From: a virus
Reading direction: 5' to 3' (one strand)
Length of the DNA: 23,560 bases
IMG/VR virus record: IMGVR_UViG_3300037071_001564
Span: 1 to 23,560 of that record
Under the pieces are notes generated by a model. It did no database searches. It worked only from the letters and a program-made list of their open reading frames with translations, and was not told the DNA's origin. The position numbers and the translations under genes were made by a program. Numbering within the stretch: position 1 is the stretch's first letter; every line of letters starts with the position of its first letter. Positions 3,447 to 19,936 of the stretch are shown piece after piece.

Positions 3447-3896
3447 ATTCAGAGGGGAGCGCGACCCTATCGCACTTCGACGGGCGAGTGTGAGCGCGAC
3501 AGCCCCGATGATCCAGAACACCTCGACGCACGCGACGAGACCCCCGGCGGTGAGCGCGAGGTCGGCGACGTTGTACGCCCAGAGGTTCGTCCAGCGGCCG
3601 TCGGGGTCTGCCTCGGTGAATGGGTTCGGGACGCCGCCGGTCGCCTCGTTCCAGACCACGTTCCCGAGGACTCCGGCGAGGACGAGCGCGAACCCGATCG
3701 AGCGGGCCATGAGCACGAACCCGACGCACCCGGTGAGGAAGACGGCGGTGTGCCAGAGCGGCGGCATCTGGTCGGCTCGGGCCTGCGCGTGCCATGTCCA
3801 GTCGCCCTCGCCTGGGGCGCGCCACTTCGTGACCGCGTCGACCGTGAGCACGCCGCCGACGGCGGCCGCCAGCCAGGTGTACGGGATCCGGCCCAT
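3426..3896 (-). CDS. signal peptidase II (LspA)-like membrane protein lacking conserved residues
   Basis: I start this 156-residue protein at ATG 3896, which overlaps the stop of the 33-residue gene (TGATG); a GTG at 3908 is possible. It has four hydrophobic segments. Three features recall lipoprotein signal peptidase II: TVDAVTKW (D20, K24) in the first helix, GVLGNVVWN (77-83) and AYNVADLAL (107-115) in the last. LspA uses two catalytic aspartates, one shortly after a GN..DR box and one in F/Y-N-x-A-D. Here the second is present (D112), but the box reads GNVVWN and the expected first Asp region reads GGVPNPF, with Asn91 at about the right place. It is probably not a standard peptidase. It may be a degenerate or repurposed relative. 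Confidence 0.7.
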   Translation of the reverse strand: MGRIPYTWLAAAVGGVLTVDAVTKWRAPGEGDWTWHAQARADQMPPLWHTAVFLTGCVGFVLMARSIGFALVLAGVLGNVVWNEATGGVPNPFTEADPDGRWTNLWAYNVADLALTAGGLVACVEVFWIIGAVALTLARRSAIGSRSPLNADGPRR

Positions 3897-4295: not shown

Positions 4296-5339
4296 TCACC
4301 GCATCGTCCCAGGCAGTTCTCCGTCGGGGCCGGGGCCGAACGGGACGTCATCGATCGGGAGGGTGTCCGCTGCCGCCGCGGCCTCGGCTGCCTCGATCGC
4401 CTCGGTCTCGTCGTAGCGAAGCTCGGGCGGCTCCTTCGCCGCGAACGCCCACTGGAACGCCTCGGTGATCGCCCCGGGTTCGCGTGACTCGACCGGCGGG
4501 AACGCGCCCACGTCGGTCTTCTCCACGATGCGGGCGACGGCGTTCGCCATCCTGGTCGCGTACTCGGTGCGCCGCTCCTCGGGCAGTTCCTCCCGCAGGC
4601 TCACCCCGAACAGTTCCGCGAGGAGCGGCTGGAGGGTCGCGGGCCAGTCGAGCGTCGGCCCGATCTGCTTCAGCGCCTCCCCCATCCTCTGCCAGTAGGA
4701 CGCGTCGAGCGGGATAGCCCCGTCAAGCATGTGCTTCCCAGGGTCGAACGGCCCACGCGCCGCAGATCGCGTCCTGGTGGCTCCTGGAGGCTGCTGCTGC
4801 CGTGGCTGCTGCTGCCCGGCGCGGATGGTCTCCTCCGGGCTGGAGCCGTCGGGATCCACCGTCTCCGCCGTCGACACCGCCAGCACGATCGCGAGCACCG
4901 ACTTGAACGCCATCGTGATCGCCTTCGACGTCGACTTGTCGCCCATGTCGGTTCCCTCGCCCCACGCCGACGCGACCACGCTGTCGCCGAGCGGCCCGTA
5001 GAACGTGAACTGGATCCGGAGGTTCGTCTCGTACATCGTCTTCCCGCCGTCCCGGCCGACCATCCGCTCACCGGGGATCCGTTCCAGCACCTCCGGCACC
5101 ACGATCACGCCGTACTTCCCGAGCAGCGGATTCAGTTCGTTCAGCACCGTGTCGTGCGACCGGAACATGAACCCCTGGTCGGCGTTGCGGGTGTCCTTCC
5201 CGATCGCGGGAAGCTCGGCCAGGATCCGCCCGAGCCGCTCGTGGATCGTCGCGTCCTCGTTCCACACCTCGTCGGCCTCGACCGCTGCCGCCGTCGCCTC
5301 CTCGACCGGCTGCTCCGGCTCCTTCGTCTTCGCTGTCAC
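4296..5339 (-). CDS. ERF family single-strand annealing protein
   Basis: The start is GTG 5339, which overlaps the previous stop (GTGA) and follows a strong GAAGGAGACGAC ribosome site. A longer frame from 5681 is Arg-rich and not credible upstream of that point. Of 347 residues, about 30-165 form the ERF domain: HERLGRILAELPAIGKDTRN, then YGVIVVPEV, and the signature GEGTDMGDKSTSKAITMAFK (127-146). ERF proteins are phage recombinases that coat single-stranded DNA and anneal complementary strands, replacing RecA-type pairing in phage recombination. The C-terminal half (Gln/Pro-rich 175-195, then charged helical) is variable in this family. No recognisable exonuclease partner lies next to it. 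Confidence 0.9.
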   Translation of the reverse strand: MTAKTKEPEQPVEEATAAAVEADEVWNEDATIHERLGRILAELPAIGKDTRNADQGFMFRSHDTVLNELNPLLGKYGVIVVPEVLERIPGERMVGRDGGKTMYETNLRIQFTFYGPLGDSVVASAWGEGTDMGDKSTSKAITMAFKSVLAIVLAVSTAETVDPDGSSPEETIRAGQQQPRQQQPPGATRTRSAARGPFDPGKHMLDGAIPLDASYWQRMGEALKQIGPTLDWPATLQPLLAELFGVSLREELPEERRTEYATRMANAVARIVEKTDVGAFPPVESREPGAITEAFQWAFAAKEPPELRYDETEAIEAAEAAAAADTLPIDDVPFGPGPDGELPGTMR

Positions 5340-5596: not shown

Positions 5597-5790
5597 GTCC
5601 CGGCCCTCGCGCAGAACTCCTCCAGCGTCTCCTCCGGATACGGCTTCTGCACGAACCCCTTCTCCTGCGCCTCGAACACACGGCGGCAGAGGGTGCCGTA
5701 CGCGGCCGCCGCGATCCTCGCGTCGAAGTCGCGGAGGTACCGGGCGTTCTCCTCCGCGACGGCCTTGTCGACTGCCTTCGAGAGACTCAC
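5593..5790 (-). CDS. hypothetical protein, 65 residues
   Basis: GTG 5790 overlaps the preceding stop (GTGA), and the TGA overlaps the next ATG. The sequence (MSLSKAVDKAVAEENARYLR... ending EETLEEFCARAGT) predicts an almost fully helical, charged small protein. No motif identifies its role. It is the second gene of the operon driven by the 6008-6036 promoter. Confidence 0.75.
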   Translation of the reverse strand: MSLSKAVDKAVAEENARYLRDFDARIAAAAYGTLCRRVFEAQEKGFVQKPYPEETLEEFCARAGT

Positions 5791-5966
5791 GACCCGACCT
5801 GCACGAAGTCCTTACCGAACTGCCAGGCGGCAGAAGCGGTAGCGATAGACCGGTACCAGCGGCGCTGGCCCTCATACCGCACCATCTCACGCATCTGGTG
5901 CTGACAGCTGCGGATCGTGCGTCGCTGGATCTGAAGTCCGAGTGTGTGCGGGGCGGGCTGGTTCAT
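5787..5966 (-). CDS. hypothetical protein, 59 residues, first gene of the ERF operon
   Basis: ATG 5966 lies 5 bases after the conserved leader dyad GACGACTCC...GGAG-type site, with GAGGAGGA as its Shine-Dalgarno. The frame can be extended upstream to 6017, but that would run through the -10 box and leader, so 5966 is the real start. The peptide is basic and Arg/Gln-rich (HTLGLQIQRRTIRSCQHQMR, then YEGQRRWYRS). No family is recognised. Small basic early phage proteins often bind host factors or nucleic acid, but nothing here proves it. Confidence 0.75.
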   Translation of the reverse strand: MNQPAPHTLGLQIQRRTIRSCQHQMREMVRYEGQRRWYRSIATASAAWQFGKDFVQVGS

Positions 5967-5971
5967 GTCGT

Positions 5972-5985
5972 CTCCTCCTCGGGAG
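5972..5985 (-). promoter_or_regulatory. leader dyad over the ribosome site, CTCC/GGAG version
   Basis: On the minus strand CTCCCGAGGAGGAG can form a 4-bp stem (CTCC/GGAG) with loop CGAGGA, which contains part of the Shine-Dalgarno. It lies 5 bases before ATG 5966. Compared with the other three copies (GTCC/GGAC), the outer pair is changed on both sides, so pairing is kept. Confidence 0.6.
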
Positions 5986-6007
5986 TCGCTATCGATTGAC
6001 ACTCCGG

Positions 6008-6036
6008 ATTCAATCACACGTCGTCGTGGTTGTCAA
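6008..6036 (-). promoter_or_regulatory. cassette promoter 2 (ERF operon)
   Basis: On the minus strand there is TTGACA (6036-6031), a 17-nt spacer and TTGAAT (6013-6008), preceded by TGA (extended -10). The -10 begins the dyad TTGAATCCGGAGTGTCAA (6013-5996), whose TTGA and TCAA ends are inverted. The previous gene's stop (6014-6016) lies in the spacer. It is one of four copies of the same promoter-leader cassette. Confidence 0.75.
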
Positions 6037-7543: not shown

Positions 7544-7965
7544 GGTCGCACCTCCACGTCATCGCAGAACCATCCCGCCGTGATCCCCTCGTCGGCGAGC
7601 CACCGCTCCTTCGTCCCGTCGAAGCACTCGACCAGAACCGCCGGGCCGATCCGGACGTCGCGGCCAGCGTCGTCGCTGTAGTCGCCGTCCTCCTCCGTGA
7701 CGCCGGTCACGAGACCGACGACACGTCCGTCGGACACGACCTCCATGCCCTCCCGGATCTCGACATTGTTGCGGTCGCGGATCTTGACGGGCGGCACCGG
7801 CCGCTCGTAGTCGACCAGGACGCGGCCGTGGTCGGGGCACCAGCCGCCGCCGTCGACCATCTGATCGGTCGTGGTCTGTCCGCACTTCGGGCAGTACGCC
7901 ATCTTCGTCTCCTCCCAGTAGGGGCTGAACTCGCCGCGCTCGCGGCCGTCGTCGGGGCCGGTCAC
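7540..7965 (-). CDS. zinc-ribbon protein with beta-barrel-like C-terminus
   Basis: GTG 7965 overlaps the previous stop (GTGA), and the first 21 codons all end in G or C, which supports this start. However, ATG 7902 (MAYCPKCG) has a stronger Shine-Dalgarno (GGGAGGAGACGAAG), so a second, shorter product is possible. Residues 25-46 form a zinc-ribbon-like site: C25-P-K-C28 and C43-P-D-H46. Residues 60-115 (IREGMEVVSDGRVVGLVTGV...) look like a small beta-barrel of the PRC/DUF2171 kind. The last third is acidic, with W and C residues. Function is unknown. It may bind nucleic acid or protein through the zinc site. Confidence 0.8.
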   Translation of the reverse strand: MTGPDDGRERGEFSPYWEETKMAYCPKCGQTTTDQMVDGGGWCPDHGRVLVDYERPVPPVKIRDRNNVEIREGMEVVSDGRVVGLVTGVTEEDGDYSDDAGRDVRIGPAVLVECFDGTKERWLADEGITAGWFCDDVEVRP

Positions 7966-8168
7966 GACCAGCCCTCGACGATCTCGGTGCGGGCGACCTT
8001 CCGGCTGTCGACACCGGCGATCTGGCGGCGGGTGCGGAGGTCGATCCCGCGGGCGAGCCGCGCGGCCTCGGCCTCGATGCGCTCCGGGGTGCCGCTCCGC
8101 TTCCGGCCGTGGCCGATCTGCGATCCGTCCTTCGCGTAGAAGTGGATCGTGACTCGTGCTGCACTCAT
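7962..8168 (-). CDS. hypothetical protein, 68 residues, first gene of accessory operon
   Basis: The ATG at 8168 lies 5 bases after the conserved leader dyad, and the stop overlaps the next GTG. The longer frame reaching 8399 would read through the leader, promoter and a hairpin, so it was not used. The protein begins with a strand-like MSAARVTIHFYAKDGSQIGH and continues with a charged helix (ERIEAEAARLARG). No family is recognised. Confidence 0.75.
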   Translation of the reverse strand: MSAARVTIHFYAKDGSQIGHGRKRSGTPERIEAEAARLARGIDLRTRRQIAGVDSRKVARTEIVEGWS

Positions 8169-8173
8169 CTCGT

Positions 8174-8187
8174 GTCCTCCTCGGGAC
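8174..8187 (-). promoter_or_regulatory. leader dyad over the ribosome site, GTCC/GGAC version
   Basis: On the minus strand GTCCCGAGGAGGAC forms a GTCC/GGAC stem around the loop CGAGGA, 5 bases before ATG 8168. It is identical to the copies at 18963-18976 and 19873-19886. Confidence 0.6.
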
Positions 8188-8209
8188 TCGCTTGCTTCTG
8201 ACACCACGT

Positions 8210-8237
8210 ACTCTAGCAGGTTCTCGGGAGATGTCAA
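8210..8237 (-). promoter_or_regulatory. cassette promoter 1 (accessory operon)
   Basis: On the minus strand there is TTGACA (8237-8232), a 16-nt spacer and TAGAGT (8215-8210), with TGC before the -10. A separate inverted repeat, TCTCGGG (8222-8228) with CCCGAGA (8239-8245), brackets the -35 and could be an operator. The -10 is followed by the conserved GTGTCA. Confidence 0.7.
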
Positions 8238-14144: not shown

Positions 14145-14636
14145 CTACCCCGAGATGTCCGGGTCTGGTGCCCAGAGCGTGAAGTCGGAGAACGTCGGCT
14201 CGTAGATGTTGTCGCCGCCGAACTTGATCTCCTGGCCGGGCAGCCCGTACATGCACGAGATCGACCGGGCCGCCGACGTCGCGTCCGTCCACGCCAGCGT
14301 CGCGGCCGACGTCAGCTGCGCTTCGAGCGCGGCGACGACGGCCTTCTGCAACGCCACGAGCTTCTGGATGTACTCGGTCTTGTTCGTCGCGGGGGTGCCG
14401 CCGGACAGCGTGCCGATGTGGACGCTGCCGGAGAACACGATCACCCGGCCCGCGAAGAACGCGCCCTGGAGGTCGAGGTCTCCGTTGTCCTGGGAAGCCG
14501 GGTCGATCTGCCTGCGGATCGGCTTCCCGTCCAGCCCGACGATGTCGTTGAACGTCGGCGTGACGAGGGTGTCGGTGTCCTTCGGCCCATTGATCGTGAT
14601 CCCGGCGTACGTGTACGTCGCGCAGATGTCAGCCAT
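14145..14636 (-). CDS. distal tail (Dit)-like protein
   Basis: ATG 14636 overlaps the tape measure stop (TGATG), the usual position for a distal tail protein. The 163-residue protein begins MADICATYTYAGITINGP and NDIVGLDGKPIRRQIDPASQ, with strand-rich ends and a helical centre (YIQKLVALQKAVVAALEAQL, about 88-108). Length and location are typical of a short Dit lacking carbohydrate-binding insertions. The assignment is from synteny, since Dit sequences diverge strongly. Confidence 0.7.
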   Translation of the reverse strand: MADICATYTYAGITINGPKDTDTLVTPTFNDIVGLDGKPIRRQIDPASQDNGDLDLQGAFFAGRVIVFSGSVHIGTLSGGTPATNKTEYIQKLVALQKAVVAALEAQLTSAATLAWTDATSAARSISCMYGLPGQEIKFGGDNIYEPTFSDFTLWAPDPDISG

Positions 14637-17600
14637 CAGACTCCGCCGCCCCCGTCGAAGCGCGCCTGCTCCATCACCCTCGCCTGCCGCGCCTGCCAGA
14701 AGTCGCCCATCGCGGCGGCCCGCTGCCCCGTCGCCTTCGCGTACTTCGTGCCGCCGTTCCCGCCGGTCGAGGTGTTCCCCTCCGTCGCCGCCGTGTTGCG
14801 GTCGAGCGCCGCGATCAGCCGGTCGATCTGCGGGTCAGCCGCCCGGGTCGGCCCCGAGATCGCCGCGGTTACCGACGTAGACCCGCGCGCCTTCGCGGCC
14901 GCCTGGAGTTGCTTCGACCCGGCCACGATCGACTTGTTGAAGTCGAACCCGGACAGCGGATCGATCCCGACGTCGCCGATGTTCGACGCGATGCTCCCGA
15001 ACAGTTCCGCGTTCTCGGTCAGGAACCCGGCGAGCGTCTTCCCCCCGGCCCCCTCCTTCTCCTTCTCCAGCAGGCTCCGCAGGGCGGCGCGCTTCTGCTC
15101 GACCGCGAGGAGCGCGTCACGCTGCGCCTTCGACCCGGCCTTCGCGCCGATCGCGACCTTCCGCCAGAACTGGATCTCGGCCCGCAGTCCCTTCTCCTGC
15201 GCGGCCTCGTCGCCACGCAGCGACGCGATCTCCGTCAGCGTCGACAGCCTGTCCGCCAGGTCGTCCGTGCGGGACTGAGCGGCCTCTACAGCGTCGGCGG
15301 CCATGTCGGTCTTGATCTGCTTCCCGTCCGCCACGGCCCGCGACAGCGCGTCCCTGAGCACGTCGAGCGCCTGGTTTCGGATCTCGACGTCCTTCACCCG
15401 CTTCTTCACCAGGACGATCTGGGAGCGGAGGACGTCCTGGAGCGCCGTGTTCGCGGCCTGGTCGTTCTTCAGTCCCTTCGTTCCCTCGGCCGCGATCACC
15501 GCGCGCTCCTCGTCGCCGCGGCCGATCTCCAGCCCGGTCACGAAGTCTCGGTCGCGCTTCTCCGCCGCCGTCTTCGCCCTGTCGGCGTTCTGCTTCGCCG
15601 TGTTCGCGGCGGCCTCCTGGTCGGCCGCGATGCCCGACTCGATCCCCTCGATCTGCTGCGTCGTCTGCGCCAGCTGCGCCCGCAGTGTGCGGCGCTGCTC
15701 GACCCGCGCCTCGGACGGGTTCTCGATCTTCTCGATCCTCTCGATCGCCTCGGCGATCCCGGCCCGCTTCTTCTTCAGCGCCGCCAGCTGCCCGCCGGTG
15801 TCGCCCTCCGCGATCGCCTTGTTCACCGACTCGTCGGCGGCCTCCCCGATCGAGTTGGCTTGCTTCACCCCGGCGGTCGCGGCCTCCGCGATCTTCGACG
15901 CGAGCGTCTGCCCGATCTTCACGCCCTCCTCCGCCGCCGTCGCCGTCGCGGCCCGGGAGCCGTCCTCGATCGCTGACCGGAGGGCCGCACCGATCAGCGG
16001 CCCCGACCTGGCGACAGCGTGGGCGGACTCCTCGATGCCGGAGCGTGCGGCCGCGCCGAGACCCACGAACACCGACTTCGGCAGCGCCTTCAGGATCGCC
16101 CGACCCGTCGCCGTCGTCTCCAGCTGCACGGCCTCCAGCGGAGTGATGACACCGTCGAGCAGAACCCGCCGCACCTCCGGCCCCATGTCCCGGAACGCAT
16201 TGATGAGCTTCTCGGTACCGGCCGGGCTGTCGTTCAGCGACTTCGAGATCGCCTGGATCTGCGCGATGATCTCCTTCGCTTCCTTCCCGATCCCCGTCGG
16301 CAGGAAGTCGACCGACGCCCGGTCTTGCCGCTCTTCCTCTAGCTCCGCGAGACGCTCCGTCAGTTCGCCGAGGTCGGCGTTTACGACGTCGAACTCGCCG
16401 CCACCGAGACCCTTCAGCGCCTGCACCGCACCGCGGATCGCACCAGCCAGGCCGCCGACAGCACCGGCCCCGGCCCCGACGGCCGGGAGGAGCGCCCCGC
16501 CGATCTCGACCGAGAGAGCGCCAACCTCGTTCTTCGCGAGTTGGATCTGCGACGCGGTCGTCTCGAACCGCTGCGCCGCCTCGTTCTGGAGCGCGTTGTT
16601 CTTATCCCACTCCGTCGCCCCGATCTTCAGCGAGTTCGACAGGAGGTCGCCCGCACCGGCCGACCGGAGCAGCGCGTCCCGGACACGGATGCCGCCGAGG
16701 CCGAGCCGGTCGAGCGTCGCGAACACCGACCCGCCCTCCTCGTCGATCCGGGCCAGCCCCCGAATGAACGCGGTGACCGCTTCCGCCGGGGCCGTCTTGA
16801 ACGACCGGGCGAAGTCCTCGCTCGACTGGCCCGCCACCTCGGCGAACGCCGCGAGCTTCTTCCCTCCAGCGTCGACCGACGACGCGATCCGGATGAACGT
16901 CGTGGAGATCGCGGTGCCCCCGGCCTCGGCGTTCAGACCGACGGACGCGAGCGCCGCGCCGAACGCGAGGATCTGATCCTGCGTCAGCCCGATCTGGTGT
17001 CCGGCACCCGAGATCCGCAGACCGAACTCCACGATCTCGGCCTCGGTCGACGCCGTCTTGTTGCCGAGCGCGACGATCGTAGATCCGAGGTTGTCGAACT
17101 GCGACTGCGGCAGCTGCGTGATGTTCGCCAGCCGAGCGAGCGAGTCGGCCGCCTGCTCCGACGTCAGGTTCGTCGTGACGCCGAGTTCGGCGACCGTCTT
17201 CGTGAACTCGGTGATCCCTTCCGTCTCGATGCCCAGCTGACCGGCGGCCGCACCGATCGCCGACAACTCGGTGGTCGTGACGGGGATCTCGGTCGAGAGG
17301 TCGATGAAGTCGGAGCGGATCTGCTGAAGCACCGGCTCCGTCGCCTGCACCGTCTTCCGGACACCCGCGAACGCGGACTCGAACTCGATCGCGGCCTGCG
17401 CCGTCTTCACCGCCGCGAGGCCGATGCCGACACCGACACCGGCCGCGCCGAGCGCCGCGATCTGCGTCGACCGTGCGGCAACACTGCCGAACTGGTTGAA
17501 CGCCTGCCCGGCCGTGCCGAGGTTCCTGGTCGTGGACGACAGACCCCGGTCGATGCCCGACCCGTCGAACCTCGGGGTGAACGCCGACGCCGCGAGGCTG

Positions 17601-17686
17601 CGCTCGATGCCGTCCTTCACCCGGCCGGAGAAGTTCCGGAAGTCCGGGACGATGTCAACGAACGCGGTCTCGATGGGTTCAGCCAT
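14636..17686 (-). CDS. tape measure protein
   Basis: The largest gene of the window, 1016 residues, starts at ATG 17686. Residues about 60-330 match the TP901-type tape measure core: a hydrophobic IAALGAAGVGVGIGLAAV (76-93), FESAFAGVRKTVQATEP, TELSAIGAAAGQLGIE, and GLNAEAGGTAISTTFIRIAS. A helical, Ala/Glu/Lys-rich rod follows (about 430-950), including QEAAANTAKQNADRAKTAAEK. By the usual 0.15 nm per residue the tail would be about 150 nm. The protein sets tail length and enters the tail tube. It is made with the G/T chaperones encoded just upstream. Confidence 0.95.
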   Translation of the reverse strand: MAEPIETAFVDIVPDFRNFSGRVKDGIERSLAASAFTPRFDGSGIDRGLSSTTRNLGTAGQAFNQFGSVAARSTQIAALGAAGVGVGIGLAAVKTAQAAIEFESAFAGVRKTVQATEPVLQQIRSDFIDLSTEIPVTTTELSAIGAAAGQLGIETEGITEFTKTVAELGVTTNLTSEQAADSLARLANITQLPQSQFDNLGSTIVALGNKTASTEAEIVEFGLRISGAGHQIGLTQDQILAFGAALASVGLNAEAGGTAISTTFIRIASSVDAGGKKLAAFAEVAGQSSEDFARSFKTAPAEAVTAFIRGLARIDEEGGSVFATLDRLGLGGIRVRDALLRSAGAGDLLSNSLKIGATEWDKNNALQNEAAQRFETTASQIQLAKNEVGALSVEIGGALLPAVGAGAGAVGGLAGAIRGAVQALKGLGGGEFDVVNADLGELTERLAELEEERQDRASVDFLPTGIGKEAKEIIAQIQAISKSLNDSPAGTEKLINAFRDMGPEVRRVLLDGVITPLEAVQLETTATGRAILKALPKSVFVGLGAAARSGIEESAHAVARSGPLIGAALRSAIEDGSRAATATAAEEGVKIGQTLASKIAEAATAGVKQANSIGEAADESVNKAIAEGDTGGQLAALKKKRAGIAEAIERIEKIENPSEARVEQRRTLRAQLAQTTQQIEGIESGIAADQEAAANTAKQNADRAKTAAEKRDRDFVTGLEIGRGDEERAVIAAEGTKGLKNDQAANTALQDVLRSQIVLVKKRVKDVEIRNQALDVLRDALSRAVADGKQIKTDMAADAVEAAQSRTDDLADRLSTLTEIASLRGDEAAQEKGLRAEIQFWRKVAIGAKAGSKAQRDALLAVEQKRAALRSLLEKEKEGAGGKTLAGFLTENAELFGSIASNIGDVGIDPLSGFDFNKSIVAGSKQLQAAAKARGSTSVTAAISGPTRAADPQIDRLIAALDRNTAATEGNTSTGGNGGTKYAKATGQRAAAMGDFWQARQARVMEQARFDGGGGV

Positions 17687-18522: not shown

Positions 18523-18957
18523 TCATTCGGCCTCCTTCTCGAAGTACACGACGCCGGGGTGATCCTTCACTGCGTCCCAGGCTGCCCGGTGCGACTCCTT
18601 CGTCTTCGCGAGCTTGATCGTGGAGTCCCAGGAGGAGAACCCGTGGCCGTAGCCGCCCTCGATCTTCACCGTGACCATCCCGGGGTTCAGGCTGTCATCC
18701 TCGATGCTGATGACGGGGCCGACGATCCAGCCGCTCATCGTCTGCCAGCGAACCTTCATCCCGACGCGGAGTTCGGTCAGCGCGATCTCGGGGCGGGCGA
18801 TGGGATCCCAGATCTTCTTCGCGGCGACGGCTGCCTTCGTGTACACCTGGCCGGTGCCGCCGCACCCGTAGCAGCGGTCGCCGTGGATCTGGTTGTAGCT
18901 GTAGCGGCCAGATCCTCCGCACCTGCTGCACTCCGTGGTATCGAACTTCAGGGCCAT
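18523..18957 (-). CDS. DnaJ-type zinc-finger protein (moron unit 2)
   Basis: ATG 18957 follows the conserved leader dyad by 5 nt. The frame to 19008 reads through the leader and was not used. The 144-residue protein opens with two DnaJ-like knuckles: C10-S-R-C13-GGSG and C29-Y-G-C32-GGTG, spaced to bind one zinc. There is no J-domain. A middle region (VGMKVRWQTMSGWIVGPVISIED) suggests a small beta-barrel, and the end is charged helical. Its own promoter and hairpin, and the lack of any virion link, mark it as an accessory insertion among the tail genes. Function is unknown; it may modulate protein folding or bind nucleic acid. Confidence 0.8.
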   Translation of the reverse strand: MALKFDTTECSRCGGSGRYSYNQIHGDRCYGCGGTGQVYTKAAVAAKKIWDPIARPEIALTELRVGMKVRWQTMSGWIVGPVISIEDDSLNPGMVTVKIEGGYGHGFSSWDSTIKLAKTKESHRAAWDAVKDHPGVVYFEKEAE

Positions 18958-18962
18958 CTCGT

Positions 18963-18976
18963 GTCCTCCTCGGGAC
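18963..18976 (-). promoter_or_regulatory. leader dyad over the ribosome site, GTCC/GGAC version
   Basis: This is the same 14-nt dyad (GTCCCGAGGAGGAC on the minus strand) as at 8174-8187, 5 bases before ATG 18957. The loop CGAGGA holds part of the Shine-Dalgarno. Confidence 0.6.
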
Positions 18977-18998
18977 TCGAACTCTCTTGACACTCCGT

Positions 18999-19027
18999 AT
19001 TCAAGCACACCCTGCCGGGGTTGTCAA
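18999..19027 (-). promoter_or_regulatory. cassette promoter 3 (moron unit 2)
   Basis: On the minus strand there is TTGACA (19027-19022), a 17-nt spacer and TTGAAT (19004-18999), with TGC before the -10. The -35 lies in the palindrome GGGTTGACAACCC, and the -10 starts the dyad TTGAATACGGAGTGTCAA (19004-18987). The gp10-like gene's stop (19024-19026) is inside the -35. Confidence 0.75.
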
Positions 19028-19600: not shown

Positions 19601-19867
19601 TCAGACCGCCACCTTCCGGGGATCGTACGAGGCCCGGATCCAGTCCAGATCCTCGCCGTGTTCGGCGGCGAGCGCGACGCCCGCCTCGGTGAACATCGCG
19701 AAGACGCAGTCTTCGTCGTCCATCGTGTCGATCAGGTCGAGCTTCTTCAGGTGGGTGAGGTTGCCGCGCTGCGCGGGGGAGACAGTCACGAGCGGCATGC
19801 CGCTCCAGTTGGGGGCGTCCTCTACGAGGCCCATGAACAGTTCGAGTGAATCGGGTGTGATCTGCAT
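19601..19867 (-). CDS. small winged-helix-like protein (moron unit 1)
   Basis: ATG 19867 lies 5 bases after the conserved leader dyad. The 88-residue protein shows a winged-helix pattern: VEDAPNWSGMPLV, SPAQRGNLTHLKKLDLIDTM as helix-turn-helix, and DDEDCVFAMFTEAGVALAAE as the wing and last helix. The 'rGNLt.Lkk..Li.......fT.aG' arrangement is common in small MarR/PadR-like regulators. The end (HGEDLDWIRASYDPRKVAV) is charged. It may regulate the four cassette promoters, its own included, but this is inference. Confidence 0.8.
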   Translation of the reverse strand: MQITPDSLELFMGLVEDAPNWSGMPLVTVSPAQRGNLTHLKKLDLIDTMDDEDCVFAMFTEAGVALAAEHGEDLDWIRASYDPRKVAV

Positions 19868-19872
19868 TTCGT

Positions 19873-19886
19873 GTCCTCCTCGGGAC
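19873..19886 (-). promoter_or_regulatory. leader dyad over the ribosome site, GTCC/GGAC version
   Basis: This is the same 14-nt dyad as at 8174-8187 and 18963-18976, 5 bases before ATG 19867, carrying the Shine-Dalgarno in its loop and right arm. Confidence 0.6.
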
Positions 19887-19907
19887 TCGCTTGCTCTGAC
19901 ACCCCGT

Positions 19908-19936
19908 ATTCAAGCACACCCTGTCGGGTGTGTCAA
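19908..19936 (-). promoter_or_regulatory. cassette promoter 4 (moron unit 1)
   Basis: On the minus strand there is TTGACA (19936-19931), a 17-nt spacer and TTGAAT (19913-19908), with TGC before the -10. The spacer holds the inverted repeat CACCC-GACA-GGGTG. The -10 runs into TTGAATACGGGGTGTCAG (19913-19896), matching the other copies. It starts 4 nt after the upstream gene ends. Confidence 0.75.

Follow-up and report, generated by a model that had tools for sequence, protein, structure and literature searches.

Our results support a model in which a short dyad, repeated just upstream of four genes of a virus, is probably an RNA hairpin that holds the Shine-Dalgarno sequence within a promoter-plus-leader cassette. 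We propose this with moderate confidence, since it rests on one covarying base pair. The hairpin, NUCC-CGAGGA-GGAN' (4 bp with a 6-nt loop), would stand in the short 5' leader of every cassette transcript. The window, by which we mean the whole 23,560-base virus record (69% G+C), contains STCCCGAGGAGGAS at exactly four places, every one of them on the minus strand:

5972 to 5985, minus strand: leader dyad CTCC-CGAGGA-GGAG, outer pair C-G, with the Shine-Dalgarno AGGAGG spanning the loop and the 3' arm
8174 to 8187, minus strand: leader dyad GTCC-CGAGGA-GGAC, outer pair G-C, exact match
18963 to 18976, minus strand: leader dyad GTCC-CGAGGA-GGAC, outer pair G-C, exact match
19873 to 19886, minus strand: leader dyad GTCC-CGAGGA-GGAC, outer pair G-C, exact match

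An ATG closely follows each dyad (at 5966, 8168, 18957 and 19867), and the fuller leader block reads CGA-NTCC-CGAGGA-GGAN'-ACGA, then ATG. The original prediction had described three copies of one form and one of the other before ATG, an outer pair altered on both sides with pairing kept, and a Shine-Dalgarno lying within the loop and right arm. The letters are exact in the window, the outer pair is indeed C-G once and G-C three times, and AGGAGG runs across the loop and 3' arm at 5972-5985 as described. By itself, however, the window offers one two-sided change of the outer pair. As evidence of covariation this single swap is weak; what supports it is a set of 17 more leaders from outside the window.

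The genes behind the dyads are as follows:

5787 to 5966, minus strand: 59 aa, without a Pfam match; the longer reading 5787-6017 is without a PHROG match
7962 to 8168, minus strand: 68 aa, without a Pfam match; the reading 7962-8164 is without a PHROG match
18523 to 18957, minus strand: 144 aa, with CxxCxG repeats and weak PHROG matches, function unassigned
19601 to 19867, minus strand: 88 aa, without a family match

The CxxCxG repeats in the protein of 18523-18957 resemble a zinc-binding domain, and a Pfam search gave no match. Elsewhere the window carries an ERF-type recombination gene (4296-5339) and a tape-measure gene (14636-17686). The dyads at 18963 and 19873 lie 1.3–2.2 kb upstream of the latter, and the genes that they themselves lead have no assigned function. 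Megablast found no relatives of the window among 50,697 phage records; L210 and L455 were likewise without a match to named phages, and a search of named phages with the short leader gave matches at chance level only.

Each dyad closes a longer cassette, which runs from TTGACA through a spacer of 16–17 nt to TTGAAT or TAGAGT, then to GTGTCA about 5 bases further on, a variable stretch, the dyad and ATG. The pattern TTGACA-N38..64-CCGAGGAGG occurs at four places in the window against a mean of 0.00 over 100 shuffles, and the cassette is thus not a product of chance. The four cassettes are:

5974 to 6036, minus strand: promoter-leader cassette with TTGACA at 6036-6031, a 17-nt spacer, TTGAAT at 6013-6008 and GTGTCA at 6002-5997 (hexamers assigned by inspection)
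8176 to 8237, minus strand: promoter-leader cassette with TTGACA at 8237-8232, a 16-nt spacer, TAGAGT at 8215-8210 and GTGTCA at 8204-8199 (hexamers assigned by inspection)
18965 to 19027, minus strand: promoter-leader cassette with TTGACA at 19027-19022, TTGAAT at 19004-18999 and GTGTCA at 18993-18988
19875 to 19936, minus strand: promoter-leader cassette with TTGACA at 19936-19931, TTGAAT at 19913-19908 and GTGTCA at 19902-19897

Judged from these hexamers, the promoter of each cassette appears to be sigma-70-like. If transcription is assumed to start 7 nt past the -10 box, the 5' leader is estimated at 31–50 nt.

The same element is found in other virus contigs. An IMG/VR scan with TTGACA-N38..66-TCCCGAGGAGGA returned 12 stretches, some of which are unrelated coding sites, and a scan leaving both outer pairs free added one further contig with a second copy inside it. 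Leaders with the exact 12-base core number four in the window, six each in G001 and G002, two in G007 and one each in G005, G003 and G004. Both the window and G001 have genes in common with G002, G005 and G007, at a protein identity of mostly 30–60%. Between the window and G001 no gene is shared, yet their cassettes are very alike, and the two may belong to a single genome, as separate parts of it, or to closely related ones; G007 has relatives of both. The dyads of G001 (L207/L208) sit among its head, portal and tail genes, and the genes that they lead have no assigned function. The relatives carry different promoters and different dyad-led genes, none of the latter being common to the contigs, which left no orthologous leaders to compare. 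In all 10 cassettes from the window and G001, the promoter lies between a TTGACA at -35 and an inverted TGTCA past the -10 box, and the copies in G002, G005 and G007 match this repeat only in part. In the window the promoter repeats extend over 5997-6036, 8199-8237, 18988-19027 and 19897-19936. Other scans contributed less: a promoter-only scan (56 stretches) gave one relative, L140, the remainder being unlike the cassette, and a tape-measure protein search gave 15 loci with kinship in the tape-measure gene only. Sites from a loose gapped pattern scan (at least 120 stretches) were unrelated by inspection and were set aside as evidence. In G002 (L209), at about 2229 on the minus strand, an ERF-type gene has both the dyad and an extra GC-rich hairpin-like stretch between the -10 box and the dyad; the related ERF-type gene of the window has no dyad.

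Our alignment comprised 21 leaders with an identical 12-base core, 4 from the window and 17 from other virus contigs. The outer pair is complementary in every one of them (12 C-G, 8 G-C and 1 U-G, none broken), or in 19 of 19 when the G003 and G004 leaders are left out, whose contigs have little or no kinship and which may be chance matches. Its covariation score is 0.175 against 0.048 in shuffles, with 0 of 500 shuffles as high, and lies between 0.001 and 0.040 with slid partners; eight cells are altered on both sides. The dyad element is more general than the single observation in the window. The inner three pairs are uninformative because they are invariant across the 21 leaders. Most scan patterns fixed these pairs, so that covariation there could not appear; where the second pair was left free, in two scans, the family leaders kept T-A every time. 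Aligning the leaders of relatives, as had been suggested, revealed no frequent one-sided changes within the 4-bp arms. The accompanying search for more covarying pairs found two-sided changes that preserve pairing in the outer pair only. Of the flanking pairs, C-G is broken in 5 of the 21 leaders and G-C in 3, with no compensating change. Since these flanking pairs depart only by breaking, they lend no support to a longer stem, CG-A-stem-A-CG, and this candidate was dropped.

How much this pairing means depends on how often the same core is paired elsewhere. A scan of bacterial genomes (47 stretches), in which no family member was seen, served as a control; there the outer bases around the 12-base core behind a promoter-like pattern are complementary in 16 of 47. 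In the viral scan that left two outer pairs free (36 listed stretches, with L429, L441 and L450 giving no row and repeats of identical context removed), both pairs are formed in 11 of 11 family leaders, whereas among 28 other sites the outer pair is formed in 8 and both in 2. For the outer pair, the difference between the 11 family leaders and the 28 other viral sites gives a Fisher p of 4.5e-5 if kinship is ignored. Viral sites outside the family with TCCCGAGGAGGA before ATG (L258-L375) are complementary in 49 of 100 against 33.7 expected among the matches listed, the 100 being a sample after removal of identical-context repeats and near-identical rows (over 70%). Same-core viral sites at unlikely starts are complementary in 28 of 62 against 21.0 expected, again among the matches listed. 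Because these unrelated sites are also over-paired, part of the covariation effect may have another cause, and codon phase is a possible one. At 37 non-family promoter-linked sites with CCCGAGGAGG, after removal of identical-context repeats, both outer pairs are complementary in 5, which is about chance, and we accordingly do not extend the covariation to phage leaders with this core in general. Promoter-linked leaders in L222, L236, L239 and L244 have fully paired arms, CACC/GGTG and GACC/GGTC, around CGAGGA, in chance-level numbers.

A further consideration is the number of independent changes that the 21 related copies represent, which may lie between 2 and 6. We built a tree of 19 leaders using only their flanking sequence, and none of its branches is starred; the best form of this tree needs 6 state changes, no fewer than 2 are possible, and just 1 is forced by starred branches. 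Five pairing-preserving changes at a background of 0.36, slightly high relative to the bacterial control of 16 in 47, would have a probability of 0.006. Two changes at a background of 0.49 would have a probability of 0.24, which is not significant; how strong the evidence is therefore turns on the event count. C-G is the sole type in G002, G005 and G007 (9 of 9), and G-C is confined to the window and G001 apart from two single copies in other contigs. Among the cassettes of the window and G001, the three pair types (G-C, C-G and U-G) are scattered over promoters with differing -10 boxes, so that a single origin would need recombination between promoter and leader. The original claim that covariation, even once, suggests selection was thus too strong, since control sites are complementary in 29–49% of cases and the events may number two; the part of it that stands is selection for the dyad, which is backed by 21 of 21 leaders.

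The same counts bear on an alternative in which pairing is not selected at all: a strong, conserved ribosome-binding cassette would have spread by copying or recombination, its paired change arising once or twice, by chance or by hairpin-templated (quasi-palindrome) repair. That the starred branches force only one change, that unrelated sites are over-paired too, unlikely starts included, and that G002, G005 and G007 have C-G only while G-C lies nearly all in what is maybe one genome all agree with this alternative. It would nonetheless require the recombination just described for pair types to cross the differing -10 boxes of the window and G001; it must also accommodate the lack of any unpaired outer base in 21 leaders, and the invariance of the left-arm UCC and of the A after GGAGG, neither of which serves the Shine-Dalgarno. 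We regard it as unlikely, though a serious contender. A different alternative is that the dyad is a DNA operator, a palindrome for a dimeric DNA-binding protein just past the transcription start. The inverted repeat is present in the DNA, and the cassettes are repeated as operators are. However, 19 of 19 exact copies in the window and the four related contigs are in the sense orientation, GGAGG ending 4–8 nt before ATG, and none of these 19 places of the 12-base core lies outside a leader or on the other strand. The U-G copy keeps an RNA helix but is asymmetric as DNA, a single protein would have to accept both outer types within one contig, and a clearer operator-like repeat, TTGACA/TGTCA, surrounds the promoter in every one of the 10 cassettes of the window and G001. 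Sense placement, the U-G copy and the clearer promoter repeat favor RNA over a DNA operator, without proving it. Of the two possibilities originally offered, the RNA stem is the better fit, and we consider a DNA operator improbable.

A special form of the RNA-hairpin reading is that the hairpin is bound by a protein, whether a CsrA-like reader of the loop GGA or a reader of the stem, that represses or times the translation of all cassette genes at once. CsrA sites are short-stemmed loops with GGA placed over the Shine-Dalgarno, and the dyad matches this form; moreover, the loop and inner stem are invariant in the 21 leaders beyond what a Shine-Dalgarno needs. Yet a search of the five contigs, which are possibly partial, gave no CsrA match (E up to 1), and no candidate regulator was found. 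This form of the model seems to us distinctly unlikely. Structured or recognized leaders over the ribosome site control translation in several phages, as at the targets of T4 RegA, gp32 and gp43 and at the coat operator of RNA phages. The window element is like these in being a leader over a ribosome site and unlike them in being repeated on many genes.

In folding predictions the dyad is present in the minimum-energy structure of all four window leaders, which are not unusually stable relative to shuffles (z of -0.37, -1.16, 0.25 and -1.64). In a 72-nt context the probability of the outer pair has a median of 0.37 over the 21 leaders; values near 1 occur in several G-C copies, and low ones in several of the C-G copies as well as in one G-C copy from G001. 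Freeing AGGAGG costs a median of 5.3 kcal/mol in the 21 leaders against 2.9 at 45 AGGAGG-ATG sites elsewhere in the same contigs, not all of them necessarily true starts (rank test, 19 versus 45, p = 0.0013). An alternative register with a 3-nt loop is seen for a C-G copy; because G-C copies would be unpaired at the outer position in that register, the swap favors the 6-nt loop. The A after GGAGG is invariant, as is its pairing partner, the U in the left arm. The anti-Shine-Dalgarno would want a U at this position, so the A does not fit that purpose. Rfam gave no matches at gathering score in the window, L207, L208 or L209.

If the dyad is an RNA hairpin, it would form on the nascent leader, keeping the GG of the Shine-Dalgarno in the 3' arm and displaying AGGA in the loop, and the stem would have to be opened by the ribosome or another factor. 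30S entry might then proceed at one moderately restricted rate on every cassette gene. Transcription would be set separately, by the sigma-70-like promoter within its TTGACA/TGTCAA inverted repeat, a candidate repressor site.

Similar arrangements have been described in other phages. A study of cluster K mycobacteriophages reports 13-bp Start-Associated Sequences (SAS), GGGATAGGAGCCC, at ribosome sites, about half of them with an upstream Extended SAS (ESAS); its authors suggested that SAS act in translation initiation and did not decide whether some product binds to them (PMC3203893). A later report places an inverted repeat together with a SigA-like promoter in the ESAS of Adephagia and terms the role of SAS ill-defined (PMC11373665). 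Cluster K SAS keep to the non-structural half of the genome, and the consensus of the cluster K ESAS is a 17-bp imperfect repeat. Cluster EF Microbacterium phages also have SAS and ESAS, with the consensus GGGAAAGGACCCC before starts and an upstream element centered on GTAGAG (PMC7302621). The dyad resembles the cluster K SAS in being a short motif repeated a few nucleotides before mostly ATG starts of genes of differing families, and in having a Shine-Dalgarno between complementary outer arms (GGG-N7-CCC in SAS). It resembles the ESAS in its upstream inverted repeat enclosing a SigA-like promoter, an arrangement present in all 10 cassettes of the window and G001, and the repeat around the promoter looks, as in the ESAS, like a repressor site. 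The layout of the cluster EF elements is the same. The sequences are not the same: GGGATAGGAGCCC has no match in the window at up to 2 mismatches, and the two window matches to the cluster EF motif at 2 mismatches are at chance level. Because the layout is shared and the sequence is not, the dyad cassette would appear to work like SAS/ESAS rather than to be SAS. In contrast to SAS, the window dyad puts part of the Shine-Dalgarno in its 3' arm.

SAS were described in 2011, and their role was still called ill-defined or unverified in reports of 2024–2025, among them a survey from 2025, covering 188 cluster K phages, which states that SAS function needs experimental verification (PMC11373665, PMC12699233). 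A second SAS-like family, with unrelated sequence and arms that stay complementary, turns this into a testable idea, namely that a hairpin holds the ribosome site. Searches of the open-access literature found no report of this leader (14-mers and 12-mer) or of covariation in SAS. More speculatively, the hairpin may define a translational regulon, in which one factor made or recruited by the phage reads NUCC-CGAGGA-GGAN' and times all cassette genes beside a repressor at the promoter repeat, with SAS elsewhere embodying the same idea; we think this improbable but worth stating. The outer pair of SAS behaves differently from that of the dyad, which is paired in 21 of 21: it departs from G-C in 17 of 98 sites, remaining complementary in 2 of the 17 and broken in 15, although these sites, drawn from parts of six cluster K phages at up to 3 mismatches to the consensus, were chosen in a way that favors one-sided changes. 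The two departures that keep pairing are C-G in Pixie and T-A in ZoeJ. The Pixie SAS, CGGATAGGAGCCG, at locus position 3519 (L460), carries an outer G-C to C-G swap, as in the window.
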